Origin: Variovorax paradoxus EPS
GTDB taxonomy: Bacteria > Pseudomonadota > Gammaproteobacteria > Burkholderiales > Burkholderiaceae_C
Direction: 5' to 3'
Length of the DNA stretch: 64,000 nucleotides
Assembly (NCBI RefSeq): GCF_000184745.1
Contig: NC_014931.1
Coordinates: 992,001 to 1,056,000, forward strand
Each line of letters opens with the position of its first letter. Position 1 is the first letter of the stretch. Below, one piece after another: positions 7,714-61,063 of the stretch. Below the pieces are notes generated by a model. That model searched no databases, had not been told where the DNA came from, and saw nothing but the letters and a program-made list of their open reading frames with translations. The translations under genes and the position numbers were made by a program.

Positions 7714-8778
7714 TCAGGCGACCAGCACGGGTGCAATGGCTGCGGCCGCCTCCGTGTGGATGCAGCGTACACGGTGATTCGGTGCCAGTTCAATCACCGG
7801 CGGTTGTGCGGCGCGGCACGCATCGCTCGCGAGCGCGCAGCGCTCGGCAAAGGAGCAGCCGGGCGGCAGCGCCGAAAGATCGGGCGGCGCACCGCCGATG
7901 GTCTCCAGCCGCGTGCCACGCGCGAGCGCCCCGTGCGCGCGGCTCTTGAGTAGCGCGATGGTGTACGGATGGCGCGGCGAGCGGATCAGCTCGCGCGCCG
8001 TGCCTTCCTCGACGATGCGCCCCGCATACATCACCGCGATGCGGTCGGCCACCTCGACGGCCGCGCCGATGTCGTGCGTGACGAAGATCACCGAGAGGCC
8101 GAGGTCGCGCTGCAGCTCGCGCAGCAGCAACAGGATCTGGATCTGCACCGTGGCGTCGAGCGCCGTGGTCGGCTCGTCGGCCAGCAGCAGTTGCGGCTTG
8201 CAGGCGAGGGCGAGCGCGATCATGGCGCGCTGGCGCATGCCACCCGACATCTCGTGCGGATAGGCCTGCAGGCGCCGTTCGGGGCTCGGAATGCGCACGC
8301 GCTCGAACAGCGCCAGCGCGCGCTGCTGCGCCTCGGCCTGGCTCACGGACTCGTGGCGGCGGATCGACTCGACGATCTGCGCGCCCACCGAGTACACCGG
8401 GTCGAGCGCGAGCAGCGGCTCCTGGAAGATCATCGAGGCGACCTTGCCGCGGAAGTCCGCGAGCTCGCGCTGCGGCATCGCAAGCACGTCGCGGCCCGCC
8501 ACTTCCACCTGCCCGCCCATGCGGGTGCGGCGCTCGGGGTGCAGGCGCAGCAGCGTGCGCAGGGTCACGCTCTTGCCCGAGCCCGACTCCCCGATCAGCG
8601 CGACCACCTCGCCGCGCTGCACTTCGAGGCTCACGCCGCTGACCGCGTGCACGGGCTTGCGGCCGCCGCTGAAAGTGACGCTGAGGTCGCGCAGCCGGAC
8701 CATGGGGCCGGTGGCGGCGGTTTCTGCTGCTGTTGTCGCTGTTGTCGCTGTTGTCGCTGTTGTCGCTGTTGCGCTCAT
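7714..8778 (-). CDS. Peptide-type ABC transporter ATPase (DppD/OppD-like)
   Basis: 354 residues. Walker A is GESGSGKS, the signature is MSGGMRQR, and Walker B is [15 protein letters not shown]. The C-terminal oligopeptide-transporter extension with conserved cysteines ([13 protein letters not shown]) that binds an iron-sulfur cluster in some homologues is present. The start overlaps the previous gene's stop by ATGA, which favours it over the inner ATG at MVRLRDL. The resulting N-terminus is a Thr/Ala-rich tail of repeated ATT units that the family does not need. It pairs with the ATPase encoded just upstream. Confidence 0.92.
8729..8770. repeat. Short tandem repeat, 9-bp unit, four full copies
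   Basis: GCTGTTGTC is repeated four times at 8729-8764 with a partial fifth copy to 8770. It lies inside the first codons of the DppD-like ATPase gene and encodes repeated Ala-Thr-Thr on the minus strand. The unit is a multiple of three, so copy-number change keeps the frame. Confidence 0.9.
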
Positions 8779-46355: not shown

Positions 46356-46488
46356 GAAGATGGCACCGAGTTTGAGTCCGAAGTGGAACAAGTGTCTTTC
46401 ATTCATGCCCCATTGTGAAATTTCGAACTCCGGCGAAGAATCTGTCCCACCAGACGCAGCCCGCTTCTGGGTCAAAGGAGTTGCTCTC

Positions 46489-47463
46489 ATGGCGAAAGTG
46501 TTTGGACGCAAGCCGGGGCGCGCCGCCGCTGGTCTGGTACTGGGTTTCGCAGCTGCATTCGCGCAGGCCCAAGTGTTTCCGGACAAGCCGGTGCGCATCA
46601 TCGTGCCGGCTGCGCCGGGTGGAAGCGCGGACAAGAACGCCCGGGCGATCGCCGACAAGCTCGGTGATCTGTGGAAGCAGCCGGTGATCATCGAACTCAA
46701 GCCCGGGGCCAACACGCTGATCGGCACCGACTACGTCGCCAAGAGCCCGCCCGACGGATACACCCTGCTCATGAATTCAGCGGCGATCGCCGTCAATCCC
46801 AGTGTGTACGCCAAACTGCCGTACGACACGCTGAACGACCTCGTGCCGGTGGCGCTGGTAAGCACCGCGCCTTTCGCCGTCGTGGTCCACCCCTCGGTCC
46901 CGGCCAGATCGATGAAGGAGTTCATCGCGTTGGCCCGGTCCAATCCGCAAGTGCTTTCCTTCGGAACGGCCGAGTCCAGGGCGATGCTCGCGGGGCATCA
47001 GTTCAACCTGCTGGCAAAAACGCAACTGCAGAGCGTTCCCTATAAAGGAGCGGGTGCCTTGATGAACGACCTGGTGGCGGGGCACGTGCCCGTTTCATTT
47101 TCGGCGCTCAGCTCGGTACAAGCGCAGGTGCAGGCCGGGCGCCTGCGCCTGCTGGGCGTGGCGGCGAGCAAGCCTTCGGACCTCTCGCCGCAGGCCGAAC
47201 CGATTGCCGCCGGTGCGTTGCCCGGTTTCGAGGCATCGTCGTGGTTCGGGCTCTTTGCACCGAAGGGGACCGCCCCGTCGCTGGCCAGCAGGATCCATCA
47301 GGACGTGGCCGCCGTGCTGAGGGACCCGGTGGTGACCAAGCGTTTCGCAGACATGGGAGCGCAGCCGAGCGGGGAAGGGCCGGGGCCGTTCGCACTGCGC
47401 TTGCGCGACGAAGTCGAAAGCTCGGCCCGGATCGCCAGGGCCGCCAGCATCCAACCCGAGTGA
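46489..47463 (+). CDS. Bug/TTT-family solute-binding protein
   Basis: 324 residues. A signal peptide with cleavage near AQAQ (about 28) precedes the Bug core: FPDKPVRIIVPAAPGGSADKNARAIADKLG, ELKPGANTLIGTDYVAKSPPDGYTLLMN, and the pocket strand VPYKGAGALMNDLVAG. The ligand is probably a carboxylate or aromatic acid, given the neighbouring catabolic genes. AAGGAG lies 9 bp upstream of the ATG. No membrane components are present. Divergent from LysR, with the isomerase gene 18 bp downstream. Confidence 0.93.
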   Translation: MAKVFGRKPGRAAAGLVLGFAAAFAQAQVFPDKPVRIIVPAAPGGSADKNARAIADKLGDLWKQPVIIELKPGANTLIGTDYVAKSPPDGYTLLMNSAAIAVNPSVYAKLPYDTLNDLVPVALVSTAPFAVVVHPSVPARSMKEFIALARSNPQVLSFGTAESRAMLAGHQFNLLAKTQLQSVPYKGAGALMNDLVAGHVPVSFSALSSVQAQVQAGRLRLLGVAASKPSDLSPQAEPIAAGALPGFEASSWFGLFAPKGTAPSLASRIHQDVAAVLRDPVVTKRFADMGAQPSGEGPGPFALRLRDEVESSARIARAASIQPE

Positions 47464-47481: not shown

Positions 47482-47790
47482 ATGCAGTTCATGTTGAACA
47501 TCGATTTCACGATGCCTGCCCATTTCACACCGCAGGAGGCACTGGCTCTCAGAGGCCTGGAGAACGCGCACGCGCTTGCGCTCATGGAGCAGAAGGTCTT
47601 GCTGGGCATATGGCGCGTGGTGGGGCGAACGTCCAACTTCAGCCTGTGGCAGGCACCCACGCTGGAAGCCCTGCATGCCACCCTGTCGGCGCTGCCGATG
47701 TTTCCATTCATGAAGATTCAGGTGACGCCCTTGATCGAGCACCCTGTTGCCGCGGCTTTTGCGCAGCACCATGAGGGCGGCCTCGCATGA
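47482..47790 (+). CDS. Muconolactone isomerase-like protein
   Basis: 102 residues, close to the length of muconolactone Delta-isomerases (about 95). The hallmarks are the start FMLNIDFTMPAHF, a central GIWRVVGRTSNFSLWQAPTLEALHATLSALPMFPFM and the end VTPLIEHP. The fold is ferredoxin-like and usually decameric. In beta-ketoadipate metabolism the enzyme shifts the double bond of muconolactone; no other cat/pca genes are present, so a role on a different lactone or simply binding is possible. Overlaps the next gene by ATGA. Confidence 0.85.
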   Translation: MQFMLNIDFTMPAHFTPQEALALRGLENAHALALMEQKVLLGIWRVVGRTSNFSLWQAPTLEALHATLSALPMFPFMKIQVTPLIEHPVAAAFAQHHEGGLA

Positions 47791-48443
47791 CGCCCCGGGC
47801 GGATGCGCGCGTACTTCGGCAGCGCGGCTTTGGCAACAGCGTGGGCCTTGGCCAACTGCCCGCGCTGATCGTCGTGGATTTCGTCCAGGCGTTCACCGAT
47901 CCGGCATCGGCGCTGGGTGCCAGCGTGGATGACGAGATCGCCGCGGCCAACCAGCTGCTGGATGCGGCTCATCGTGCGAAGGTGCCGGTGTTCTTCTCCT
48001 GCATCGCCTACAGCGAGGACGATCTGGCCGACGCGGGCGTCTGGGCAAGCAAGATTTCCGGACTCGGTGCGCTGCGCGCGGACACCCCCCAGGTCCTGCA
48101 GGATGCGCGGCTCCACGTGGCCGCTGGCGACGAGTTGATCGTCAAGAAATACGCGAGTTGCTTCTTCGGAACCGACTTGCAGGACCGCCTCAGGCGGCGC
48201 CGGATCGATACGCTGGTAGTTGCTGGATGCTCCACCAGCGGCTGCGTGCGCGCGACGGTGGTCGATGCCTGCCAGATGGGGTTGCGCGCGATCGTGGCCC
48301 TCCAGGCCGTGGCCGACCGATCGGCTGCGGCGCACCAGCAGAGCCTCGTGGACATCCAGATGAAGTACGGGGACGTACTTTCTGTCGAGACGATCACGGC
48401 GTATTTTTCGAATCTGGCCCTGCATCCTGAGCAGCACGCCTGA
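47787..48443 (+). CDS. Isochorismatase-family hydrolase (N-carbamoylsarcosine amidase/maleamate amidohydrolase-like)
   Basis: 218 residues. The catalytic triad of the isochorismatase-like cysteine hydrolases is Asp31 (LIVVDFVQAF), a lysine in IVKKYAS (120 or 121) and Cys153 in VAGCSTSGCVRATVVDA. The SGCVRATVVDA motif fits the amide-cleaving subgroup, such as maleamate amidohydrolase in nicotinate degradation. The substrate is inferred only by family and neighbours: a Bug receptor and an isomerase. The last gene of the LysR-linked unit. Confidence 0.85.
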   Translation: MTPRADARVLRQRGFGNSVGLGQLPALIVVDFVQAFTDPASALGASVDDEIAAANQLLDAAHRAKVPVFFSCIAYSEDDLADAGVWASKISGLGALRADTPQVLQDARLHVAAGDELIVKKYASCFFGTDLQDRLRRRRIDTLVVAGCSTSGCVRATVVDACQMGLRAIVALQAVADRSAAAHQQSLVDIQMKYGDVLSVETITAYFSNLALHPEQHA

Positions 48444-48469: not shown

Positions 48470-49594
48470 ATGGATCCACTCGTCTCATGGTTGTCCGTGG
48501 ACTCCGGCGATACCGTGCCGCATCGAGACGGGTCGCGTTTCGATTTCCATTGCGGCGTCCACAAGGCGGTGCGTGCAATGATGGCCGACGCGCTCCTGGC
48601 GGTTGGCAGGATGGACGCATCCGATCCCGCGGAGGTTGGGCAGGTCTGTCAGCGGATCTCGCTGCTGATGGACCTGTGCACCGCTCACACCTTGCGCAAG
48701 AGACGGCTCTTGCATGCCGCGATCGAGGCGCGCGCTCCGGGCACGAGCGATCTTGCCGCGCGCGGCTGCCGTCACCAGGCGCGCGAGTTCGCCGGGCTGA
48801 GGGCGATGGCCCAGACGCTGCGTGGATCGCCGCAGTCGCTGCGCACGGCAGCAGCGGCGCGCTTGTATCGAGGACTCGCGCTCTTGGTGGCCGAAAATTT
48901 TCAACGCATGCACCTGGAGGAGTCTGCGTACAACGTCGTGCTCTGGTCGAACTACAGCGATGAAGAATTGGCTGGTCTGCATGGCGAACTGATGGCCTCT
49001 GTCGCGCTGGATGAGGCCTACGCACTGCACTGGCTGCTGCCGTGCATGAATCCGGCTGAACGCCTCTTTCTGCTGTCGCGCATGGAAGCCGGCGCGCGGG
49101 GCGACGCTTTCGAGAACACGCTCAGCGTTGCGCGGGCGCGTCTGGCGCCCGGCGAATGGCGCAAGCTGGCATGCGGCCTCGGGCTGATCGACGAGACAGG
49201 CGGAGGGGTCCCGCGCAAGGGCGCGTGGGATGACGCCGGTGTGATGCCGATCCGTGACGCCCGCGTCCTCGAGGCGCTGCGAGCCATTCACCAGCACCCG
49301 GCCCGCGCCTGGACGGTCGCCTCGCTTGCTCGTCTGTGCCATCTGAGCAGAACCGCATTCACGATGCGATTCCGTCGGCAGACCTTGTTGCCTCCGATGA
49401 CCTATCTGGCCAACTGGCGCGTCGAGCTGGCTGCAAGAATGCTTCGCGAAGAGCGTTTGTCGCTCGACGAGGTGGCCGAGCGTGTCGGCTACTCAAGTGG
49501 AGCGATCCTTGCGAGAGCTTACAAGCGCATTCTGGGAGCGGCGCCCCGGATTCACCTCATTGGGTCCGGCGGCGGTCAGCCTGGCGGCTCGTAG
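48470..49594 (+). CDS. AraC-type regulator with N-terminal hemerythrin-like domain, metal site degraded
   Basis: 374 residues. The N-terminal 230 residues align with the stand-alone hemerythrin-like protein encoded at 50138: both share the start of HKAxRAxMADxL, the segment EARAPGTS/EVHAPGTS and MHLEESAYN/LHLEETVHN. The HxxHE motif of the neighbour is here HTLRK, so at least two iron ligands are lost. Residues about 265-365 form an AraC DNA-binding domain with two helix-turn-helix motifs (SLARLCHLSRTAFTMRF; SLDEVAERVGYSSGAI). It probably senses something other than diiron-bound oxygen, or heterodimerises with the neighbour. The architecture is unusual. Confidence 0.8.
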   Translation: MDPLVSWLSVDSGDTVPHRDGSRFDFHCGVHKAVRAMMADALLAVGRMDASDPAEVGQVCQRISLLMDLCTAHTLRKRRLLHAAIEARAPGTSDLAARGCRHQAREFAGLRAMAQTLRGSPQSLRTAAAARLYRGLALLVAENFQRMHLEESAYNVVLWSNYSDEELAGLHGELMASVALDEAYALHWLLPCMNPAERLFLLSRMEAGARGDAFENTLSVARARLAPGEWRKLACGLGLIDETGGGVPRKGAWDDAGVMPIRDARVLEALRAIHQHPARAWTVASLARLCHLSRTAFTMRFRRQTLLPPMTYLANWRVELAARMLREERLSLDEVAERVGYSSGAILARAYKRILGAAPRIHLIGSGGGQPGGS

Positions 49595-49670
49595 GATTTC
49601 CAAGGCATCGCAGCGCGCATGTGCTGCCCTGCTTCGGGAGGGCAGGGCAGGCCAAAGTCGAACGCGCTGG

Positions 49671-49943
49671 TCAGACCGGCGGTGGCGAGGTGTCGTCCTC
49701 ATTCTTGCAGGTGAAGCGCCCGTCGGTCCGCGCGCTCGCGGCGCCGGGCGCGGCGGCCTGCTCGCCGGGATAGAGCGCCGCGAGTTCGACGGCGATCTGC
49801 TCGAGAAAAAAATGCATGCGCGTGATCACCGCGATCGTGCGCGCCGCGGAATCGATGTCGGGTGTGCGAGCGGCTGGCGTGTGCTCGATACGATCGTCCG
49901 GCAAATCTGGCATGGCGCTTTCTCTAGGAGTCAATTGCTTCAT
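49671..49943 (-). CDS. Hypothetical protein, 90 residues
   Basis: A short frame of unknown function, divergent from the hemerythrin-like gene. The middle part (SAARTIAVITRMHFFLEQIAVELAALYPG) could form an amphipathic helix; the ends are low-complexity (AAAPGAASA, TSPPPV). An alternative start is the ATG at 49913. I see no domain, and coding status is uncertain; the only support is the open frame and its plausible start. Confidence 0.4.
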   Translation of the reverse strand: MKQLTPRESAMPDLPDDRIEHTPAARTPDIDSAARTIAVITRMHFFLEQIAVELAALYPGEQAAAPGAASARTDGRFTCKNEDDTSPPPV

Positions 49944-50137
49944 CTGACGTCAAATTGTTCGCGATTGCTCGTGTCCTTCACAGAGCCGGTGCGCTGGAAA
50001 ACGCAGCCCACCCGAGCGGATGCCGCCGACAAACCTGTGCCGTCGCCATCGAACCAGCGCGCAGCGAAATCTGCCCGAACGAGCGGCTGCATCTTCGATC
50101 CTCACGGCTGTGGTGTAAGTCGCGAGGTCCTCGAACA

Positions 50138-50869
50138 ATGGATGACCCCATCAATTTCCATGACTCGATGAATCACTTCGACCCACCGCGCGCGGACATC
50201 TACTCAGGCATTCACAAGGCCTTGCGTGCCCTCATGGCCGACACGCTTGTGAAGCTCGGGCGGATGGACGCCGAAGATCTTCAGGACGTGGCCCAGGTTG
50301 TCCAGCGCGTGCTGCAAATGCTCGACTTCTGCCGCACGCACGCAGACCACGAAAGCCGCTTCATCCATCCGACGCTTGAAGTGCACGCCCCGGGCACGAG
50401 CCGCGCAGTGGCATACGAGCACGTTGAACATGACGCACAAACACGGCATATCGGCATTCAAGCGCGTGCGCTTCTGGAATGCACCGCGGCGCAGCGGGCG
50501 CCGGCCGCCGCGGCGCTCTATCGCACCTTGGCGCTCTTCGTTGCAAGCAACTTCGAACACCTGCACCTGGAGGAAACTGTGCACAACGCGGTGCTGTGGT
50601 CCCATTGCACGGATGCCGAAATCATGAGTCTGCACGACGCGCTCGTCCGATCCGTTGCGCCCGAAGATCTGATGTTCATCCTGCGCTGGCTGGTGCCCTC
50701 GCTGGCGCCTGCGGAGCGCGCCGCCACGATGCGCAAGCTTCAGCTGGATGCGCCGCCTGGCGTCCTGCAGGCGGCCCTGGATGTCGTGCGGCCTCATCTT
50801 GCCGACGGCGAGTGGCTCAAGCTCATGGGCGCACTCGAGCAGGAGCATGCCCACATCGCGCAGGCATGA
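50138..50869 (+). CDS. Hemerythrin-like (HHE cation-binding) domain protein
   Basis: 243 residues. A four-helix hemerythrin-like fold is suggested by IHKALRALMADTL, the HxxHE pair in RTHADHESRFIHP (about 64-76), EHDAQTRHI and FEHLHLEETVHNAVLW (late HxxxE). All expected diiron ligands appear present. A C-terminal extension (from about 185) is helical. Such proteins bind oxygen, nitric oxide or sense redox state. It is a paralogue of the N-terminal half of the AraC-type regulator encoded about 540 bp upstream. ATG chosen at MDDPIN. Confidence 0.82.
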   Translation: MDDPINFHDSMNHFDPPRADIYSGIHKALRALMADTLVKLGRMDAEDLQDVAQVVQRVLQMLDFCRTHADHESRFIHPTLEVHAPGTSRAVAYEHVEHDAQTRHIGIQARALLECTAAQRAPAAAALYRTLALFVASNFEHLHLEETVHNAVLWSHCTDAEIMSLHDALVRSVAPEDLMFILRWLVPSLAPAERAATMRKLQLDAPPGVLQAALDVVRPHLADGEWLKLMGALEQEHAHIAQA

Positions 50870-51260
50870 CCGAACGGTTGCAGCCAAGGCGGCTTTGCCG
50901 GTGGGCCATGCGCCCGCGCCCGCCGGCTCCTTGGGGCGCATGAGGCGCGACCGCAAGCGGGGCAAGGAACTGGATACGCCGGGCGAGGCCTTTCTGCGGG
51001 CTCGCACCAACATTCATTTTCGTGCGTCGACGGTCATGGAGATGTTCGAGCTCCTGCTGACTGGCCGCAGTCGGTTGGGCATGCCTTTTGATATCAGGCT
51101 TGCACATGTGGACCCGCCGCTACTTGGGATGGTGTGGGTGCTGGAACTCACGAAGAAGACCCGTGACGAACGTTTTTCCCGGCCCCTCGATGGCGCATGC
51201 CGCGCGCGGCCGGCTGCTACGCTAGCGGCACTGCGACCGTTTTTTCACCTGTCCCGCTTT
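50870..51260. other. Intergenic stretch before the second AraC gene, no supported feature
   Basis: 391 bp between the hemerythrin-like gene and the ATG at 51261. The AraC frame is open across it but the translation lacks family resemblance, and a 94-residue antisense frame is low-complexity. Regulatory sequence of the AraC gene is likely here; I see no clear promoter or repeat. Confidence 0.5.
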
Positions 51261-52223
51261 ATGCCAATCTTCCCCGACCGACGGGCCGAAGCGAAGTACG
51301 ACGCGCTGGTCGATACCTTGAGCTTCGAGTCGATTCTCAACTTCCAGGTTCGCTTCGGCCATGATTTCGCCATCGAGATCGACAGCCGCAGCCGTGCGCC
51401 GCTCTACGTTTTCTCGGGAAAGTCTTGTCACTTCCAGATGGGCGGAGGCGGGCCTTCGATGCGTGTGGAACATGGCGACGTTCTCTTTCTTCCGCACGGT
51501 GGCAAGCACCGCGCTTACGACAAGGAAGGTTTGGCGCCGGTGCGCTTCGAAGATCTGCTGGCACGCGAGATCGAGCGAAACGGTTCGACGTACGCGGTTC
51601 ACATGGACGTGGATCGCAGTGCCGACACGGTGGTGAGCGGAAGCTTCTTCTGGACCAAGGAACTTGCGACCAACCCGCTCGTCGCGCAGCTGCCGACGGT
51701 GATGCATCTGCAAAGCGGCAACGTTGCATTGCCCTGGCTGCCGCCCATGACTGATCTGGTGCGCTGGATGTCTGACATCCGGCGTGGTGGCCGCGGCGTC
51801 GGCATGGCCGAGATCGTGAACACGCTGATTCGCCACATCGTCCTGAATCACCTGGAGCGCTGCGCGGGGCGTGCGCCTGGTGCAGCAGACGCCGCAGCGG
51901 CGCCCCATGACGAACGCTTGATGGCGGCGCTCCACGCAATCCACACACGGCCGCAACAGGCCTGGACGCTCGAATCGCTCGCGGGGCTCTGTCATATGGC
52001 TCGCACGACTTTCTCGACGCGGTTTCAGCAGCAAATGCGGCTCTCGCCAATGAACTACCTGGCCAACTGGCGCATTCACCTGGCCGCCAGACTGCTGCGG
52101 GAGCAACGGTTGTCGCTCGACGAAGTGGCCGAACGCGTCGGATATTCGACGGGTGCGATCCTGGCACGGGCATACAAGCGGGTGCTGGGCACGTCGCCGC
52201 GGGGAGCGGGCGCGACTGACTGA
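51261..52223 (+). CDS. AraC family regulator with cupin-type sensor domain
   Basis: 320 residues. A cupin_6-like N-terminal domain (about 10-200: APLYVFSGKSCHFQMGG, VEHGDVLFLPHGGKHRAYD) with histidines at the pocket is followed by the AraC DNA-binding domain (about 220-318: SLAGLCHMARTTFSTRF; SLDEVAERVGYSTGAILARA). The second helix-turn-helix is nearly identical to those of the regulators at 48470 and 59921. The start at 51261 was chosen at MPIFPDRRAEAKYD, which lines up with the start of the domain of the paralogue at 59921. Confidence 0.9.
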   Translation: MPIFPDRRAEAKYDALVDTLSFESILNFQVRFGHDFAIEIDSRSRAPLYVFSGKSCHFQMGGGGPSMRVEHGDVLFLPHGGKHRAYDKEGLAPVRFEDLLAREIERNGSTYAVHMDVDRSADTVVSGSFFWTKELATNPLVAQLPTVMHLQSGNVALPWLPPMTDLVRWMSDIRRGGRGVGMAEIVNTLIRHIVLNHLERCAGRAPGAADAAAAPHDERLMAALHAIHTRPQQAWTLESLAGLCHMARTTFSTRFQQQMRLSPMNYLANWRIHLAARLLREQRLSLDEVAERVGYSTGAILARAYKRVLGTSPRGAGATD

Positions 52224-52291: not shown

Positions 52292-55200
52292 ATGTCCCAC
52301 CTTCTCAATCCGATGGATCACCCGGTCTGTCTCGTCACGCCCTCTCACCTGCCCCCGGGGGGCACCTCCATCGAGCACCTGCCGTTCGTCATGTGGCTGG
52401 TCGATACGATGCGCCCGCGGACGATTGTCGAAATCGGCACTCGCAGCGCGGCCGCGTTCTTCGCAAGCTGCGAGGTCGTGGCAAGCCGGGGGCTTCAAAC
52501 GCATTGCCATGGTCTGGTTCTGCAGGACGACGCTGCCGCGCCCCATGCCGTCGAGCTGACCGAGGTCGCCGCGCTGCACGCCTACCACGACCCCCTCTAC
52601 GGCCATTTCTCTCGCTTGAAGCACACGCGTGTCGGGGAGGGCGCCGCCGGCTTCGCCGACGCAAGCATCGACCTTCTTCATATCGATGCGAGCCATCCGC
52701 TCATCGCCCCGGACGCGCAACTCGCCCAGTGGCTACCCAAGATGAGCCGCTCGGGCGTCTTGCTGGTTCATGGCGCCCAGGCGTGCGACATGACCGATGA
52801 GGTGCGCGCGGCCTGGTCGGCCGTGCCCCGCAGCCACGCAGGCTTTGACTTCGCGCACGACCGCGGGTTGAGCGTATGTTGCGTCGGCCGCGAGGTTGCG
52901 CCGCCGGTGCTGGCGATGAGCCGCCTGGACGAGGAAAAGGCGGCGGTGCTGCGGCTGGCCTATCTCACGCTGGGTGCCCGGCTGACAGCGCAGCTCAAAG
53001 CCAAGGAATTGCTGCGGGCGCTCGACCACTGCGCGGGCGAACGCCAGCAGCTGTCCGACCGTCTGCGAGATGCAACGTCCGCAGAGAAGCGGTTGATTCA
53101 CCAGGCACGGGCGCTGCGCGGCCAAGCCCGGGAGCGCGCTGCCGAGGCGCTCCATCGCGATGCCGCGTTGGAGCGGCTCCAGGAGCGGGTGCAAACGCTG
53201 TCTGCGCAGCTCGCGCAGAAGGACAGCCTGGTGGACGGTCTGAGTTCCACGCTGGTGACACAGGGCGCGGAACTCTCCAGCATCCATCGCAGCGTGGGAT
53301 GGTCGCTCGTTCGCCGCTACTGGAACCTGCGCGCGCGCTGGCTGCCTTCGGACACGCGTCGTGGCCAGGCGTACGAGCGCCAGCGCGACCGCTTTCTTCG
53401 CCTTGGCAGGAACCTGCTTGGCCCCGCCCCCGGGGAGCCCGGCACCGCGCTGGATTTTTCAGGCCACGGGCGCCCGGCCACACACCAGGGCGCGCGGCCT
53501 TGGGAGCAGCCCCTGACGAAAGGCAGCGGCCCGCACATGGGACGCCGGGTCCTGATCATCGGTGAGCTGTCGATGCCGGCATGCAAGCGATACCGCATCG
53601 ATCAAAAGGTCGCGATGCTGGAGCGACTCGGCCTGGACGCAACTGTGCTCGATTGGCACAACGACGAAGCCTGCCACAACGCTCTGCAGTTCCACGGGCT
53701 CGTCATCTTCTATCGGGTGCCGGCCTTCGCACAGACCAGGCGCCTGGCGGGTGAAGCTCGCCGCTTGGGAATTCCCAGCTTCTATGACGTGGACGACCTG
53801 GTCTTCGAGCCCGACGAATACCGTCGCAGCCTGGAGGTCATGGGCCTGCCGCGCAAGGAGCGCGAGATCGCGCTGGAGGGCGCCCGACTTTATCGAGAGA
53901 TGCTGAGCCTTTGCCAGCACGGCATCGGCAGCACGACACTGATCGCGCGTCAGATGAGAGCCTACGTCGCCGGCGACGTGCACACCCTGGAAAACGGATT
54001 GGACGCCACGATACTGAAGCTCGCCGATGAAGCATCGACGCTGGTGCACCCGCCGCGTGCCGCCGCAGATATGGTGACGATCGGCTACGGCAGCGGCTCG
54101 CGTACGCACGATGCAGACTTTGCCCTCGCTGCCGGCGCACTGGCCGCGGTCATGAAGCAACACAAGCATGTGCGGCTTGTGATCCACGGCTTGCTTGCGC
54201 TTCCTGCGGCGCTCGCCGGGCACAGCGACCAGATCTTCCGGATTCCGTTTCTCGATGCCGACGACTACCTGCGTGCCGTGGCCGGATGGGACATCAATAT
54301 CGCGCCTCTGGAGAACACGGCCTTCAACCAGGCCAAGAGCAACATCAAGTTCATCGAGGCCGCGGCCTTCCGGGTGCCGAGCATCTGCTCGGCGACCCAG
54401 CCATTCGCCGCGGTCATCGAGCACGGCCGCAATGGCATGCTGGCGCGCCATCCCCGCGAATGGGAAGAGGCGCTCAGGCAGCTGGTCGAAAGCGAGCCGT
54501 TGCGCCGGCGCATGGGCCAGGAAGCCCACCGCACGGCAATGGCGCGCTACCACCCGGCCGTGCTGGCGGCCGGATCGATGCTCCCCGTTGTCGCCCATCT
54601 TCCCGCTGCGGTGCAGAGCGCACGGCTGAAGGTGCTTGTGGCCAATGTGTTGTTCGCGCCTTTGAGCTTCGGCGGCGCCACCATCGTTGCCGAGCAGCTG
54701 GCGCGCGAACTCGCGGGCGATGGCTGCGACGTGACGGTGTTCACCGGCCTCATGCAGCCGGTGCTGCCCCCGTACCAGGTCGTGCGCTACGAATCGCTCG
54801 GGTTGCCGGTGATCGCCGTGCAGTTGCCTGTGGGCGGGGAGGCGTCCCTGGAGCATCGCAATCCCGCCATGAAGGAGATCTTCGTGCAGGCGCTTCGCAC
54901 GCTGCGCCCGGATGTCGTGCACCTGCATTCGGTCCAGTGGCTCAGTGCTTCGCTGGCCGAGGCTTGCTTGGAGGAGGGGGTTGCGTACGTGATCACCCTG
55001 CACGATGCCTGGTGGCTTTGCGAACGCCAATTCATGGTGCGAGAAGATCAGCGCTACTGCGGCCAGCGAACCGTCGACCTGCGTACTTGCTCCAAGTGCG
55101 TGGCCGACAGCGCGCAAACCTATCGGCGCAGTTTCTACCTGCGGCAGGCGCTTGAAGGCGCCGCGTTGCTGTTGACACCCAGCGAGTTCCAACGCCAGCT

Positions 55201-55945
55201 GTACGTTGCCAACGGAATGCATCCAGACCGTGTTGTCGTGAACAAGAACGGCGTGTTGTTGCCCACGCGTCCGCGCGCCCGACGTGATCCCCAGGCGCCT
55301 GTGCGATTCGCCTATCTGGGCGGGCGTGCGGTGCACAAGGGCTACTTCTGGCTCAAGGACATCTTCGAGTCGATGCCGCAGACCGATTACGTGCTGCGCA
55401 TCACCGACATCGCGCAGCGCATGGGTCCGCCGTCCATTCATGCCGACGAGTGGGAGGCCGGGGGCCGGATCGAGATCACGCCGCCGTACGACCAGGACAG
55501 CATGGACGAATTCTTCGACAGCGTCGATGTGCTGCTGATTCCGTCGCTGTGGAAGGAGAGTTTTGGTCTGGCGGCACGCGAGGCATTGGCGCGCGGGCTC
55601 TGGGTGATCACCACGGCGTCCGGCGGCGTGGTCGAGGACATCGTGGACGGCGTGAATGGAACGATCGTCCCGATCGGTGATGCCGAGGCATTCCGCGCCG
55701 CCCTTCGCCGCGCCATGACCGGGTCGGCACACTGCAAGGACGGGGGGCACGCCATGGCCGCAGGCATCCGCGATTACCCCACGCAGGCCCGGGAACTCAA
55801 GGGCTTGCTGCTGCGCGCCAGCCGCGAGCGGGCAGCACCTGCATCCAGCGAGACCGCATCGCGGCCGCCTCCCGCGGTGATACCGATTCTTGCGTCGAAT
55901 GCGGACAGGGCGTCGGCGCGGGCGCAACCTTTGTGCCCGGCATGA
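52292..55945 (+). CDS. Trimodular protein: class I methyltransferase-like domain, coiled coil, two glycosyltransferase domains
   Basis: 1217 residues. Residues about 10-215 look like a Rossmann SAM-type domain (TIVEIGTRSAAAFF; DASIDLLHIDASHP), of the kind paired with sugar-modifying enzymes. A helical coiled coil follows (about 235-345, ERQQLSDRLRDATSAEKRL). Residues about 415-775 form a glycosyltransferase-like domain (SFYDVDDLVFEPDEYRR, INIAPLENTAFNQAKSNIKFIE). About 785-1175 is a GT4-type domain (PLSFGGATIVAEQLARELAG ... VDVLLIPSLWKESFGLAAREALARG) with the E-x7-E motif. Likely assembles a surface polysaccharide or glycoprotein glycan. No other glycan genes adjoin. Confidence 0.85.
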   Translation: MSHLLNPMDHPVCLVTPSHLPPGGTSIEHLPFVMWLVDTMRPRTIVEIGTRSAAAFFASCEVVASRGLQTHCHGLVLQDDAAAPHAVELTEVAALHAYHDPLYGHFSRLKHTRVGEGAAGFADASIDLLHIDASHPLIAPDAQLAQWLPKMSRSGVLLVHGAQACDMTDEVRAAWSAVPRSHAGFDFAHDRGLSVCCVGREVAPPVLAMSRLDEEKAAVLRLAYLTLGARLTAQLKAKELLRALDHCAGERQQLSDRLRDATSAEKRLIHQARALRGQARERAAEALHRDAALERLQERVQTLSAQLAQKDSLVDGLSSTLVTQGAELSSIHRSVGWSLVRRYWNLRARWLPSDTRRGQAYERQRDRFLRLGRNLLGPAPGEPGTALDFSGHGRPATHQGARPWEQPLTKGSGPHMGRRVLIIGELSMPACKRYRIDQKVAMLERLGLDATVLDWHNDEACHNALQFHGLVIFYRVPAFAQTRRLAGEARRLGIPSFYDVDDLVFEPDEYRRSLEVMGLPRKEREIALEGARLYREMLSLCQHGIGSTTLIARQMRAYVAGDVHTLENGLDATILKLADEASTLVHPPRAAADMVTIGYGSGSRTHDADFALAAGALAAVMKQHKHVRLVIHGLLALPAALAGHSDQIFRIPFLDADDYLRAVAGWDINIAPLENTAFNQAKSNIKFIEAAAFRVPSICSATQPFAAVIEHGRNGMLARHPREWEEALRQLVESEPLRRRMGQEAHRTAMARYHPAVLAAGSMLPVVAHLPAAVQSARLKVLVANVLFAPLSFGGATIVAEQLARELAGDGCDVTVFTGLMQPVLPPYQVVRYESLGLPVIAVQLPVGGEASLEHRNPAMKEIFVQALRTLRPDVVHLHSVQWLSASLAEACLEEGVAYVITLHDAWWLCERQFMVREDQRYCGQRTVDLRTCSKCVADSAQTYRRSFYLRQALEGAALLLTPSEFQRQLYVANGMHPDRVVVNKNGVLLPTRPRARRDPQAPVRFAYLGGRAVHKGYFWLKDIFESMPQTDYVLRITDIAQRMGPPSIHADEWEAGGRIEITPPYDQDSMDEFFDSVDVLLIPSLWKESFGLAAREALARGLWVITTASGGVVEDIVDGVNGTIVPIGDAEAFRAALRRAMTGSAHCKDGGHAMAAGIRDYPTQARELKGLLLRASRERAAPASSETASRPPPAVIPILASNADRASARAQPLCPA

Positions 55946-55949
55946 AGTG

Positions 55950-55976
55950 AAAGGCGGCCGCCGGGCGGCCTTTCTC
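55950..55976 (+). terminator. Probable intrinsic terminator after the glycosyltransferase gene
   Basis: AAAGGC pairs with GCCTTT across a GC-rich loop (itself foldable), 4 bp beyond the stop codon, followed by TCTCTC. The uridine tract is short, so it may be weak. Confidence 0.6.
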
Positions 55977-56164
55977 TCGCGCCAGTGACGACCGCGCTCG
56001 GGCTTGCACCGCGGGGGCGTCGCCGCTCCAGAGGCCGCACCCGGGGCGGCTCGCGCGGTGCGGCGCAAGGGCATGGCGCCTGAGCCGCGCAACCGGACGC
56101 AGGGCTGTGTTTTCAGGTGTGCCGGATGTGGCCGCGAAACCTTCATTTGTCAAAAATCCATAGC

Positions 56165-56185
56165 GGCGGAATTGGTCGTTCCGCC
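56165..56185. promoter_or_regulatory. Inverted repeat upstream of the caspase-like lipoprotein gene
   Basis: GGCGGAA and TTCCGCC are perfect 7-bp arms around a 7-base spacer, 47 bp before the ATG. It could be an operator or a 5'-leader hairpin. No matching copy was noticed elsewhere in the window. Confidence 0.45.
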
Positions 56186-56232
56186 CGTCACAACATCTTG
56201 GGCGACGACCACGTCCGTTCGAAAAAGCAAAT

Positions 56233-58335
56233 ATGAGTTCAAAGGGCAGCACGAGACGCCAGGTGATGACGCGCGCGATGGCAATGGGCATGACTGCCGC
56301 CATCACCGCTTGCGGTGGCGGTGGCGGAGGCGGAGGCGGCGGCATTCCGTTCGGAGGGATTCCCAATGGCGGGGTCGACCCTGGCGACGGCGGCGAGTCC
56401 GGCTTCACGTCCGACCAGCGTTCGGCCGCGACTCGCCGCGCACACGACAAGTACATGGAGCTGCTTGCAGCGCAGACATCCGAGCCGATGCAAGCCCTGA
56501 GCCAGTGGATGCTGACGCAGCCCGAATACGACCAGGCCGGCGCGCGCGCCGATTCGGCCTGGGCGCGCTTCACCGACGGCCGGTATTTCCTCTACACCGA
56601 CAGTTGGGCACCCGTGGACCTGAGCAACGACGGCCCCCTCGAGCCCGAGCTGCGCGCCGGCGACGGCCTGGCCAAGGCCGGGCTCGTGGCGGGCAAGAAG
56701 GAGATTCCGAACAGCGAGCTGGCCGTGATCATGGCAGCCGACGCGAACGGGGACTTCGATCAGGTCAAGGGCATGCAACAGAAAGTGGCCAAGATGCTGC
56801 AGGACCAGGGCTGGCGCATCCACGGCGACCGGTCGTTCACCGTGGATTCCCTGCTGGCACTGGGCACTGTCGAGATGGGCATCTTCTATCTGGCGGCGCA
56901 CGGCGGCATGTTCGGGCCGAGCAATCAGCAGGAGTACTCGTTCATCACCGAGACCCGGGCGACCGCCGAGAACGAAGCCAAGTACCGGATCGACTTCAAG
57001 ACGGGCCGCCTGATCTATCACCGCGACCGCAATCGCGAAGAGGAGGCGGCAGGCAAGGCATTGCCGCCGTGCTACGCCATCACGGCGAGCTTCGTGCAGA
57101 AGCACTTGAAATTCTCCGACGGCGCGCTGATCGTGCTGCTGTGCTGCCACTCGGGCTCTCCGGAGGGCGAAGGATTTCGCAACGCCCTCGGAGGCGGCAA
57201 GGCGGTGACGATCGTGGCGTGGGACGGCAGCGGCAACGATTACGGTGCGCGGTCGATGGAGTACATGTTCGACCGGCTCGCGAGTGCCAACAGCCGGGAC
57301 CCCGCCAAGCCCAACAATCGCGCGTTCGACATGGACGATGTCTGGGAATACATGGGCCGCAAGTCGACCCGCCAGATCAAGCCCAACCTGCTGGTGACGC
57401 CGGCGGTGGAGTTCTTCAAGCCCGATGCGTATATCAAGCGCTTCGGCAACGGCTTCGACCTGAGCAACCCGGTGCTGGCCGAGCTGGAAACCGATCATGG
57501 CGACAAGCTCGTCTTGCACGGAAACTTCGGCTCCGAACAGGGCGTGGTATCGGTCGGGGGAACCGAGGTTGCCGTGCAAACATGGGAGAACGACAAGATC
57601 GAGCTGGTCTTGCCCACAGGCAAGTCCGACCCGAGCGGATCGCACGGCGACGTGGTGGTGACCGCGCGCAAACGCAAGAGCAACCGCCGCGTGCTGACCT
57701 CATGGCGCGGCACGGTCACCTACCTCTACGAAGACCTGGCACCCGAGGGCGACGAGGGAACGCTTTACAACAAGGTGGAAATCGACTTCCATTTGCGGGG
57801 CGACGCGCACGCAGGCCGCACGCAGGTCGATGGAGAACTGCGCTCGAACACCTGGAATCTCGCATTGGCCTCCGACAGCTCGGCCACCTATCGCGCCGCC
57901 GGCGAGCGCCGCTCGGGCGGCTTCGTGCTGCGAAGCTATTCGGGCAGCGGCGACTTGACGTACGGCGAGGTCGGGGAGGCGCTTTCGGGCACGGTCTTCT
58001 CGATGATCGGGCGCGTGAACGCAACGCTCAAGCGGATGGAACTGACCTTTTTCCAACCGCTGGATCGCCTGATGACGGATACCGATGCCAGCGGCAACGG
58101 CGTAAAGCGCAGCATGGTGTTTCCGGCAGGCGCCTTCGGCTACGTGGACCCCACCGGTGCTGGGGGCGATCACATGCCGCTGGCTTTCGGCACTCACCTG
58201 CCGATGGATGCCGCGGCGAATGTGCTGGCGTACAACAAGGCGATATTGGTCGAGGACGAACCGCGCAACCCGCTGACGGTCACCGTCTCGGCCATGACGG
58301 CTTCACCGGCATTCGACGACACCGTCGGCCGTTGA
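56233..58335 (+). CDS. Tat-type lipoprotein with caspase-like (clan CD) peptidase core and TIG-like domain
   Basis: 700 residues. The N-terminus has a twin arginine (TRRQVM) and a lipobox (ITAC, Cys27) followed by ten consecutive glycines, so it is probably exported and lipidated. Two motifs resemble the catalytic sites of caspase-like peptidases: a hydrophobic strand ending in His223 (FYLAAHGG) and one ending in Cys304/305 (IVLLCCHSGS), 81 residues apart. A TIG/IPT-like beta segment may follow (about 440-520). The C-terminal third is beta-rich and unassigned. Protease activity is inference; substrates and activators are unknown. Flanked by the glycosyltransferase and a LuxR-like gene. Confidence 0.6.
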   Translation: MSSKGSTRRQVMTRAMAMGMTAAITACGGGGGGGGGGIPFGGIPNGGVDPGDGGESGFTSDQRSAATRRAHDKYMELLAAQTSEPMQALSQWMLTQPEYDQAGARADSAWARFTDGRYFLYTDSWAPVDLSNDGPLEPELRAGDGLAKAGLVAGKKEIPNSELAVIMAADANGDFDQVKGMQQKVAKMLQDQGWRIHGDRSFTVDSLLALGTVEMGIFYLAAHGGMFGPSNQQEYSFITETRATAENEAKYRIDFKTGRLIYHRDRNREEEAAGKALPPCYAITASFVQKHLKFSDGALIVLLCCHSGSPEGEGFRNALGGGKAVTIVAWDGSGNDYGARSMEYMFDRLASANSRDPAKPNNRAFDMDDVWEYMGRKSTRQIKPNLLVTPAVEFFKPDAYIKRFGNGFDLSNPVLAELETDHGDKLVLHGNFGSEQGVVSVGGTEVAVQTWENDKIELVLPTGKSDPSGSHGDVVVTARKRKSNRRVLTSWRGTVTYLYEDLAPEGDEGTLYNKVEIDFHLRGDAHAGRTQVDGELRSNTWNLALASDSSATYRAAGERRSGGFVLRSYSGSGDLTYGEVGEALSGTVFSMIGRVNATLKRMELTFFQPLDRLMTDTDASGNGVKRSMVFPAGAFGYVDPTGAGGDHMPLAFGTHLPMDAAANVLAYNKAILVEDEPRNPLTVTVSAMTASPAFDDTVGR

Positions 58336-59624: not shown

Positions 59625-59920
59625 TGCGGTCGCGACATCGTTCGCGCGGTACCCCTTGGGGGAATGGCGCGCGGCCGCGCCGCACTCAACAATCTCCCAA
59701 CACCGGGCGGCTCCTGCAGCCAGCGCGGCTGTGTCGATTGCCCCGTTTCCGCGGCGCCGCCCTTGCTGTACGACAGCGCTCGTCGCACGACGCAGCTCAA
59801 GGCAGTGCCGTCGATGAGCGGCCGTCTTCATTCCCTTTCATGTCGGAGAACTGTCAGTGCCATCCTCCCCGTTTTACGTCGCCCGGGTCCTGTCGACTTT
59901 GAACCAGGGGGGCCGTACGC
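59625..59920. other. Intergenic stretch before the third AraC gene, no supported gene
   Basis: 296 bp between the palindrome and the ATG at 59921. Only short, unrelated open frames are present on either strand. It probably carries the promoter of the AraC gene; I see no clear boxes. Confidence 0.5.
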
Positions 59921-61063
59921 ATGCATGAATGGCACGCCGACTTTCAACTGACCGAAAGGCCCAGAGGACGACAGGAGGCCTTCGTCGGGCGCTTCCCACG
60001 GGCGGCTGCGGCCGTCCCCGGCAAGCCCGCATTGCCCTCTGACCAGGGGTCGCTGGAAACCTTGGTCCAGAGCCTGCGCTTCGAGCCGTTTCTACACTTC
60101 CGCGTTCGTTTGGACCGCTCTTTCTGCGTGCACATCGACAGCCATCGGCGTGCGCCGATCTATGTGATCGACGGACATGACTGCTGGCTGCAATTGGGCA
60201 GCGAGCCCGCCATTGCATTGGCGCATGGCGACGTCGTCTTCCTGCCGCGCGGCGGTGCGCACCGCGTTTTCTCCGATCCGGCTGCGGCGCCTTCCAGCTT
60301 CGAGGATCTGCTGGCGTGCCAGCCCGCGCAGCGTGGCCCGACGCACGAGCCGCAGGCGGCCGGCAGCGACAGTGTCTGGAGCGGCAGCTTCTACTGGAGC
60401 GCTCATCTGGCCTCTCATCCACTGGTAGCGTCATTGCCGCCGGTATTGCATCTGCGTGCCGCGGACGCCGCTTCGTGGTTGCCCTTCCTGACCGACCTGT
60501 TGCGCTGGATGGCCGATGGGCACACGGGCGGCAAAGGCGTGGGGATGTCAGAGACCGTCGGCACCCTGATGCAGCATCTGGTGCTGGACTGGCTGCGACG
60601 CATGAACGCAAGCCCGCGCGTGAGCGAGCGGCTGGCCGCGGACATGCAGGACCCGCGGTTGCTCCTGGCGTTGGCAGCTATCCATGCACGGCCCGCGCAT
60701 CCGTGGACTGCGGAGTCGCTGGCCGGGCTCTGCCACATGAGCCGCACCACGTTTTCCACCCGGTTCCAGACGCAAATGCATCAATCGCCCATGCGCTACC
60801 TTGCATGCTGGCGCATCCACCTTGCAACGGGCCTGTTGCGCGAGCAGCGGCTTTCGCTTGACCAGGTGGCCGAGCGCGTGGGCTATTCGACGGGCGCGAT
60901 CCTTGCCCGAGCCTACAAGCGCGTGCTTGGCATCTCCCCACGAGGCGGCGAACGCAAAGAGATCGACGCATGTGCCATTCGCCCCGGCGACGAAGGCGCA
61001 TCTTCGACCGGTTGGCCGGAGAACCCGCAGCGCTCGGGGGGGCTGAGCGATCGAAGCGCATGA
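59921..61063 (+). CDS. AraC family regulator with cupin-type sensor domain, paralogue of the gene at 51261
   Basis: 380 residues. The cupin_6-like sensor domain is at about 45-240 (APIYVIDGHDCWLQLG; ALAHGDVVFLPRGGAHRVF) and the AraC domain about 255-345 (SLAGLCHMSRTTFSTRF; SLDQVAERVGYSTGAILARA). Sensor and DNA-binding parts both match the 51261 protein; the last 30 residues are an extra low-complexity tail, and the first 40 differ. Both copies may bind the same operator. ATG at 59921 is one of two nearby ATGs. Confidence 0.88.
   Translation: MHEWHADFQLTERPRGRQEAFVGRFPRAAAAVPGKPALPSDQGSLETLVQSLRFEPFLHFRVRLDRSFCVHIDSHRRAPIYVIDGHDCWLQLGSEPAIALAHGDVVFLPRGGAHRVFSDPAAAPSSFEDLLACQPAQRGPTHEPQAAGSDSVWSGSFYWSAHLASHPLVASLPPVLHLRAADAASWLPFLTDLLRWMADGHTGGKGVGMSETVGTLMQHLVLDWLRRMNASPRVSERLAADMQDPRLLLALAAIHARPAHPWTAESLAGLCHMSRTTFSTRFQTQMHQSPMRYLACWRIHLATGLLREQRLSLDQVAERVGYSTGAILARAYKRVLGISPRGGERKEIDACAIRPGDEGASSTGWPENPQRSGGLSDRSA

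Follow-up and report, generated by a model that had tools for sequence, protein, structure and literature searches.

A hemerythrin-like bundle joined to an AraC-type DNA-binding domain in Variovorax paradoxus EPS

We analyzed a 64,000-nucleotide stretch of DNA from the soil bacterium Variovorax paradoxus EPS (NC_014931.1, positions 992,001 to 1,056,000; here called the window), which carries a gene that joins a hemerythrin-like domain of the HHE family to an AraC-type DNA-binding domain. This gene, F, runs on the plus strand from the ATG at 48470 to the end of the stop codon at 49594 and encodes 374 amino acids (aa). The N-terminal hemerythrin-like part (residues 22 to 236; 48533..49177, plus strand) has a predicted four-helix bundle and C-terminal helices, with changed ligands at residues 76, 77, 100, 103, 146, and 154. 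An interdomain linker follows (residues 240 to 262; 49187..49255, plus strand), with a low predicted local distance difference test (pLDDT) score in part, and leads to the AraC-type domain with its two helix-turn-helix (HTH) motifs (residues 263 to 362; 49256..49555, plus strand). Further along the same strand lie H, a standalone hemerythrin-like protein of 243 aa (50138..50869), and two regulators of the Cupin_6-AraC type, A2 (51261..52223) and A3 (59921..61063). We set the start of A2 by comparison with database protein P0123 and the corresponding protein of genome G274.

The AraC domain of F scored above the Pfam cut-offs for both HTH_18 (55.3 bits, cut-off 33.6, residues 286 to 360) and HTH_AraC (40.7 bits, cut-off 26.6), and the two HTH motifs of this C-terminal domain, roughly 100 aa long, place F in the AraC family, as the original prediction had proposed. 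No Cupin_6 match was found in F by Pfam at expectation (E) values up to 1, and A2 and A3 scored 57.9 and 78.2 bits. None of the three is RclR by the curated NCBIfam cut-off of 400 bits (F, 56.3; A2, 54.0; A3, 84.3 bits). The N-terminal part matched Hemerythrin (PF01814) over residues 31 to 153 with 15.3 bits, below the cut-off of 25.3, and H likewise remained below it with 23.0 bits. Direct comparison bore out the proposed resemblance of this half of the open reading frame (ORF) to H, with 41% identity over 229 H residues (E of 1.8e-49); identity to 119 standalone HHE proteins was 42 to 51%, and within its own genome the F N terminus matched only F and H at E values up to 10. The AlphaFold2 model of F has a four-helix bundle (helices 26 to 47, 53 to 88, 92 to 119, and 122 to 161), which is followed by more helices as far as residue 236, by a stretch of low confidence at 248 to 260, and by the AraC domain at 264 to 362. 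The N-terminal part is predicted to adopt the hemerythrin fold, the point that structure prediction had been suggested to check. A frameshift or annotation artifact was ruled out, as the ORF is unbroken in a genome assembled as one contig and the join recurs in four other database clusters.

We aligned F, H, two relatives (G274H and G508H), and the four other fusions (P0121 and P0127 to P0129) with 119 standalone homologs, which were chosen by their similarity to F in the N-terminal search with the window's own cluster left out; positions follow the numbering of F. Positions 31, 73, 76, 77, 82, 86, 100, 103, 146, 150, and 151 were His or Glu in 119/119 standalone homologs, and position 154 was His in 117 of the 119. 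All eleven invariant positions are kept in H, G274H, and G508H. F has lost five of the eleven (R76, K77, C100, Q103, and R146, where all 119 have H, E, H, H, and H), as well as carrying Y154, and so lacks the full conserved His/Glu ligand set of metal-binding HHE proteins. The claim that the HxxHE motif is lost in F and intact in H was correct, with the region reading H73-T-L-R76-K77 in F and His76 and Glu77 present in H and in every standalone homolog, and the loss turned out to be broader than first claimed, with positions 100, 103, 146, and 154 changed as well. P0121, which begins at residue 85, has C100, Q103, R146, D150, and Y154. P0127 to P0129 have R31, C73, N76, Y100, R103, and C146 with gaps at 82, 86, 150, and 151, and they keep E77 and H154; their alignment near positions 73 to 86 is less sure because a second MAFFT run shifts the gap there. 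Every one of the five known fusions has lost conserved ligand positions.

FBXL5 is a human iron and oxygen sensor and a subunit of a ubiquitin ligase. The HHE-family profile matched it weakly among solved structures (E of 0.025), and in this weak match FBXL5 residues 57, 61, 80, 126, and 130, which we take to be its iron ligands, align with residues 73, 77, 100, 146, and 150 of F. FBXL5 differs from F in that its residues 61, 80, and 126 fall on K77, C100, and R146. F might still bind metal in an altered site (for example, H31, H73, C100, and E150) and sense metal, redox state, or nitric oxide (NO), given that it keeps H31, H73, H82, E86, E150, and E151 and shares a Cys at position 100 with P0121. 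We regard such a site as improbable, since three of the five FBXL5-aligned positions are changed in F, with Lys and Arg at two of these, and P0127 to P0129 have lost a different set (Arg for H31 and Cys for H73 among others) yet keep E77 and H154, so that no single changed metal site is common to the fusions.

Among about 5.8 billion database proteins, the HHE-AraC architecture was present in five clusters with 13 member sequences: P0001, which is the window's own cluster, P0121, P0127, P0128, and P0129, the named fusion from Variovorax sp. KBS0712. A search with the N-terminal part of F at E values up to 1e-3 returned 211 proteins; the 120 that were listed comprised one fusion (P0001) and 119 proteins of 235 to 270 aa. 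Of the 28 proteins returned by the search with the HTH domain of F, 23 carry Cupin_6, and the remaining 5 are the five fusions. The HHE-like N terminus of P0121 is 64% identical to F over 95 residues, and those of P0127 to P0129 are 35 to 38% identical over 213 to 233 residues (all with E of 1e-30 or better); Pfam Hemerythrin gave no match in these four proteins at E values up to 1. P0121 is a fragment on a 1184-base contig, which begins inside the HHE part and is without the C-terminal HHE helices. An alignment of the five fusions retrieved 65 proteins at E values up to 1e-10, including the same five, and no further fusion was found among the 65 as judged by length and domain labels (7995 candidates sharing the most words were scored).

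The same picture emerged from genome samples. A fusion spanning both halves was present in 1/101 Variovorax genomes, among the matches listed, and in 1/274 genomes of a sample of the class, each time in the window's own genome. The family sample had an HHE match in 86/399 genomes, and no AraC match was found in its 26 HHE loci with open frames of at least 313 aa outside the window's genome. These counts rule out a widespread architecture within the genus, family, and class samples. No relative of F was found on viral contigs, and none of the 994 plasmid records with a match covered 80% of F. Looking for proteins with both domains, the check that had been suggested for F, therefore gives a tiny unnamed group and not a common annotated AraC subfamily. 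The HHE-AraC fusions have an N-terminal part that is new to the AraC family, in a small group that is known by name only from Variovorax so far.

Other long frames with an HHE match did not add a fusion to AraC. The HHE genes at L046:4247-5275 and L195:1-1110 leave the family sequence near the C terminus, as after a frameshift, and their frame continues without an HHE-family match. The long frame at L016 is a chance match within an acyl-CoA-ligase-like frame, as judged by eye. At L186:5060-6283, in Variovorax genome G478, an HHE domain of the same family is fused to SnoaL in a 408-aa frame with both domains above the Pfam cut-offs, and an AraC-like gene, recognized by eye, follows it. The HHE protein at L043 stops about 20 residues early.

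The five fusions formed one clade in the HTH tree of 37 rows (support 97/95, starred; 98% of 200 bootstrap trees), which was joined to the A2/A3 clade by a branch with support of 81/64. They also formed one clade in the HHE tree of 53 rows, made of 8 named proteins and 45 fetched loci (support 96/79, not starred; 96% of bootstrap trees), and this clade stood next to H, G274H, and G508H at 86/85. The HTH domains of the fusions are placed among Cupin_6-AraC regulators of the A2 kind, and their HHE parts, with less certainty, among HHE genes located near such regulators. With the fusions nested among ligand-bearing HHE proteins, the trees fit the earlier suggestion of a metal-holding ancestor, and the original interpretation, by which F may now act through another signal or a partner, has support in part. 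Genome G274 has the gene order of the window (HHE, methyltransferase, A2-type AraC, glycosyltransferase, and 700-aa protein), with identities to the window of 67% for H, 83% for the cupin, 90% for the HTH, 74% for the glycosyltransferase, and 55% for the 700-aa protein. There is no F at the G274 locus, and the preceding LysR gene is only 26% identical to the LysR gene of the window. The methyltransferase gene is whole in G274 (L165:10873-11922) and reduced to a remnant between H and A2 in the window (approximately 50867..51158, plus strand; 70 residues of the C-terminal part are 69% identical, and an N-terminal piece was matched by eye), and therefore a deletion has occurred at this place. Database protein P0125 (458 aa) starts A2 within this remnant, and that start is probably wrong. 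In genome G508, an HHE gene lies about 3 kb from an A2-type AraC gene, with other genes between them. F covers nearly the whole HHE protein (to EWRKLACGLG), followed by a linker of about 23 residues and then by the AraC domain, which begins where the interdomain stretch of A2 ends. This arrangement would follow from a deletion between two such genes, and we consider it likely that F arose by fusion of neighboring genes with loss of the cupin sensor.

The HTH domain of F is 66 to 68% identical to that of A2 and 63 to 64% identical to that of A3. The second recognition helix, which we assume from AraC structures to be SSGAILARAYKRI in F, is almost the same in A2 and A3 (STGAILARAYKRV), and recognition helix 1 differs between F and these two regulators. 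With both branches counted, the nonsynonymous (dN) and synonymous (dS) rates for the HTH domain of F were 0.25 and 1.30 against A2 and 0.30 and 4.24 against A3, the last value being saturated. As judged from such rates, the F HTH shows constraint. The pairwise dN/dS was about 0.36 for the N-terminal part of F against H and 0.19 for the HTH of F against A2, values that do not isolate F because both branches are included and dS is near saturation. F could be a competitor or dominant-negative form of A2 and A3 that occupies their operators without their signals and in which the N-terminal part is minor, as the near-identical second recognition helix, the 63 to 68% HTH identity, and the faster divergence of the HHE part would suggest. 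This is quite improbable in our estimation, since recognition helix 1 differs and P0127, P0128, and P0129 have retained an uninterrupted, in-frame N-terminal part with 35 to 38% identity to that of F, which argues for a role of this part. F might also be the product of a chance in-frame join, functionless and in decay, which would agree with the single Variovorax genome, the lost ligand residues, and the long branches. However, both parts stand in one frame in five clusters and 13 member sequences (P0121 begins inside the HHE part), and the HTH shows constraint, which makes decay highly improbable.

Three plus-strand genes precede F. The first gene of a probable operon encodes a TctC-type substrate-binding protein (46465..47463; start uncertain, with an ORF from 46354) and is followed by genes for a muconolactone-isomerase-like protein (47482..47790), which overlaps the start of the next gene, and an isochorismatase-family hydrolase (47787..48443), which ends 26 bases before F and is probably in the same operon. 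F is probably transcribed with this small catabolic operon. AraC regulators usually have a ligand-binding N-terminal domain and commonly control an adjoining operon. This background supports the idea that F is a small-molecule sensor, in which the emptied bundle core, whose residues are changed, would hold an organic compound, such as one that the enzymes of the upstream operon consume or produce, and F, the last gene of that probable operon, would control the isochorismatase/muconolactone-isomerase-like genes. The operon is not conserved, however, with only 33 to 46% identity for the matches to the isochorismatase that were listed from 39 further Variovorax genomes, and we consider such a sensor possible but unlikely.

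Alongside the observed domain make-up, the predicted fold, the single clade of five fusions, and the ligand loss in all five, we lean slightly toward the view that F is a working AraC regulator whose metal-blind bundle serves oligomerization or partner binding and no longer senses iron, oxygen, or NO. F would be an AraC-type one-component transcription factor in which a hemerythrin-like bundle has replaced the cupin sensor. A deletion would have joined a metal-binding HHE gene to a Cupin_6-AraC gene of the same direction, taking out the HHE stop codon and the cupin. The bundle may fold without metal, with the basic residues K77 and R146 at former ligand positions, and its partner could be another copy of F or another protein, the neighbor H being the first candidate. 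Given the almost identical second recognition helix, the DNA-binding half may act at sites that resemble those bound by A2 and A3.

Several results weigh against this view of F as a metal-blind regulator. The six retained His and Glu residues would allow a changed metal site, and the dN/dS values do not single out F. In the HHE tree the fusions sit on long branches (0.84 and 1.39); a single origin of their HHE halves therefore has support without a star, and their grouping with H is less firm. Simple window scans found no shared operator; one arbitrary direct-repeat pattern had 1 match versus 0.51 expected, and the repeats in six intergenic stretches included one imperfect palindrome (59662-59687). 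Promoter scanning found 0 candidates, and terminator scanning found 7 versus 4.3 expected. We also surveyed 120 HHE loci with 108 distinct HHE sequences; 107 of these loci had flanks of 4 kb or more in both directions. In tblastn comparisons, 0/120 of these other loci matched an AraC or cupin part taken from F or A2, which rules out a general HHE-AraC neighborhood, although more divergent AraC genes escape this survey, as shown by the AraC-like gene beside L186 that was missed. Conversely, an HHE gene was near the A2-type AraC gene at 3 of 12 A2-type loci (A2 of the window, G274, and G508; a weak 33% match in G473 was left out of the 12). HHE genes were absent near A3 and near the A2-type genes of G014 (3 loci), G517, G063, G195, G271, and G403; in the last four genomes, HHE is on other contigs or more than 100 kb from the A2-type gene.

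A bolder and rather unlikely extension is a two-protein switch in some Variovorax, in which metal-binding H docks on the neighboring cupin-AraC regulator and makes its activity depend on iron, oxygen, or NO. In F, the two would have been welded together and the metal site given up, and the bundle would be a metal-blind subunit that sits on the same operators paired with H or with a second copy of itself. F also points to a predicted link of AraC regulators with standalone HHE proteins, for which H and A2 are the direct test case. The locus is also a natural experiment, with a ligand-complete HHE protein beside a ligand-poor one and with related fusions that lost ligands via other substitutions.

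Together with FBXL5, three groups of proteins are closest to F. The Cupin_6 AraC regulators A2 and A3 share its two-HTH domain and sit on the adjoining branch of the HTH tree, but F has a hemerythrin-like bundle in place of the cupin and falls outside the Cupin_6-AraC subfamily. Standalone HHE proteins of Comamonadaceae and relatives (235 to 270 aa) align near full length with F residues 20 to 236, including the helices behind the bundle, but they have no DNA-binding domain and keep the ligand positions that F has partly lost. P0121, P0127, P0128, and P0129 share the HHE-like N terminus and the AraC HTH and form one clade with F in both trees; they differ from F in their other ligand losses and deletions. 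In a limited literature search, we came across no described regulator with a hemerythrin-like bundle and an AraC domain in one protein, and to that extent the original prediction, which knew of none, stands. Within the passages searched, a single-domain hemerythrin is described in PMC11841059, PMC1592074 has both AraC-type HTH and hemerythrin in its lists without showing them within one protein, and terms for a hemerythrin-AraC regulator were not found in PMC2556348. The main text of PMC4919030 has no AraC, HTH, or DNA-binding, and its figures list 56 architectures, which might include this one.

The 543 bases between F and H (49595-50137) do not have a coding-like composition (G+C by position of 0.65, 0.69, and 0.58), and a 90-aa ORF lies on the minus strand within this gap (49671-49943). 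Beyond A2, the stretch at 52292-58335 encodes two proteins, a methyltransferase-glycosyltransferase of 1217 aa and a 700-aa protein that has no Pfam match. In G274 and G508, both are again found beside HHE genes and AraC genes of the A2 type, and G014 and G517 also have relatives of the 700-aa protein close to such AraC genes. A pattern search of the window also found a short tandem repeat of TGTCGCTGT, with about 3.7 copies, at 8734-8766.
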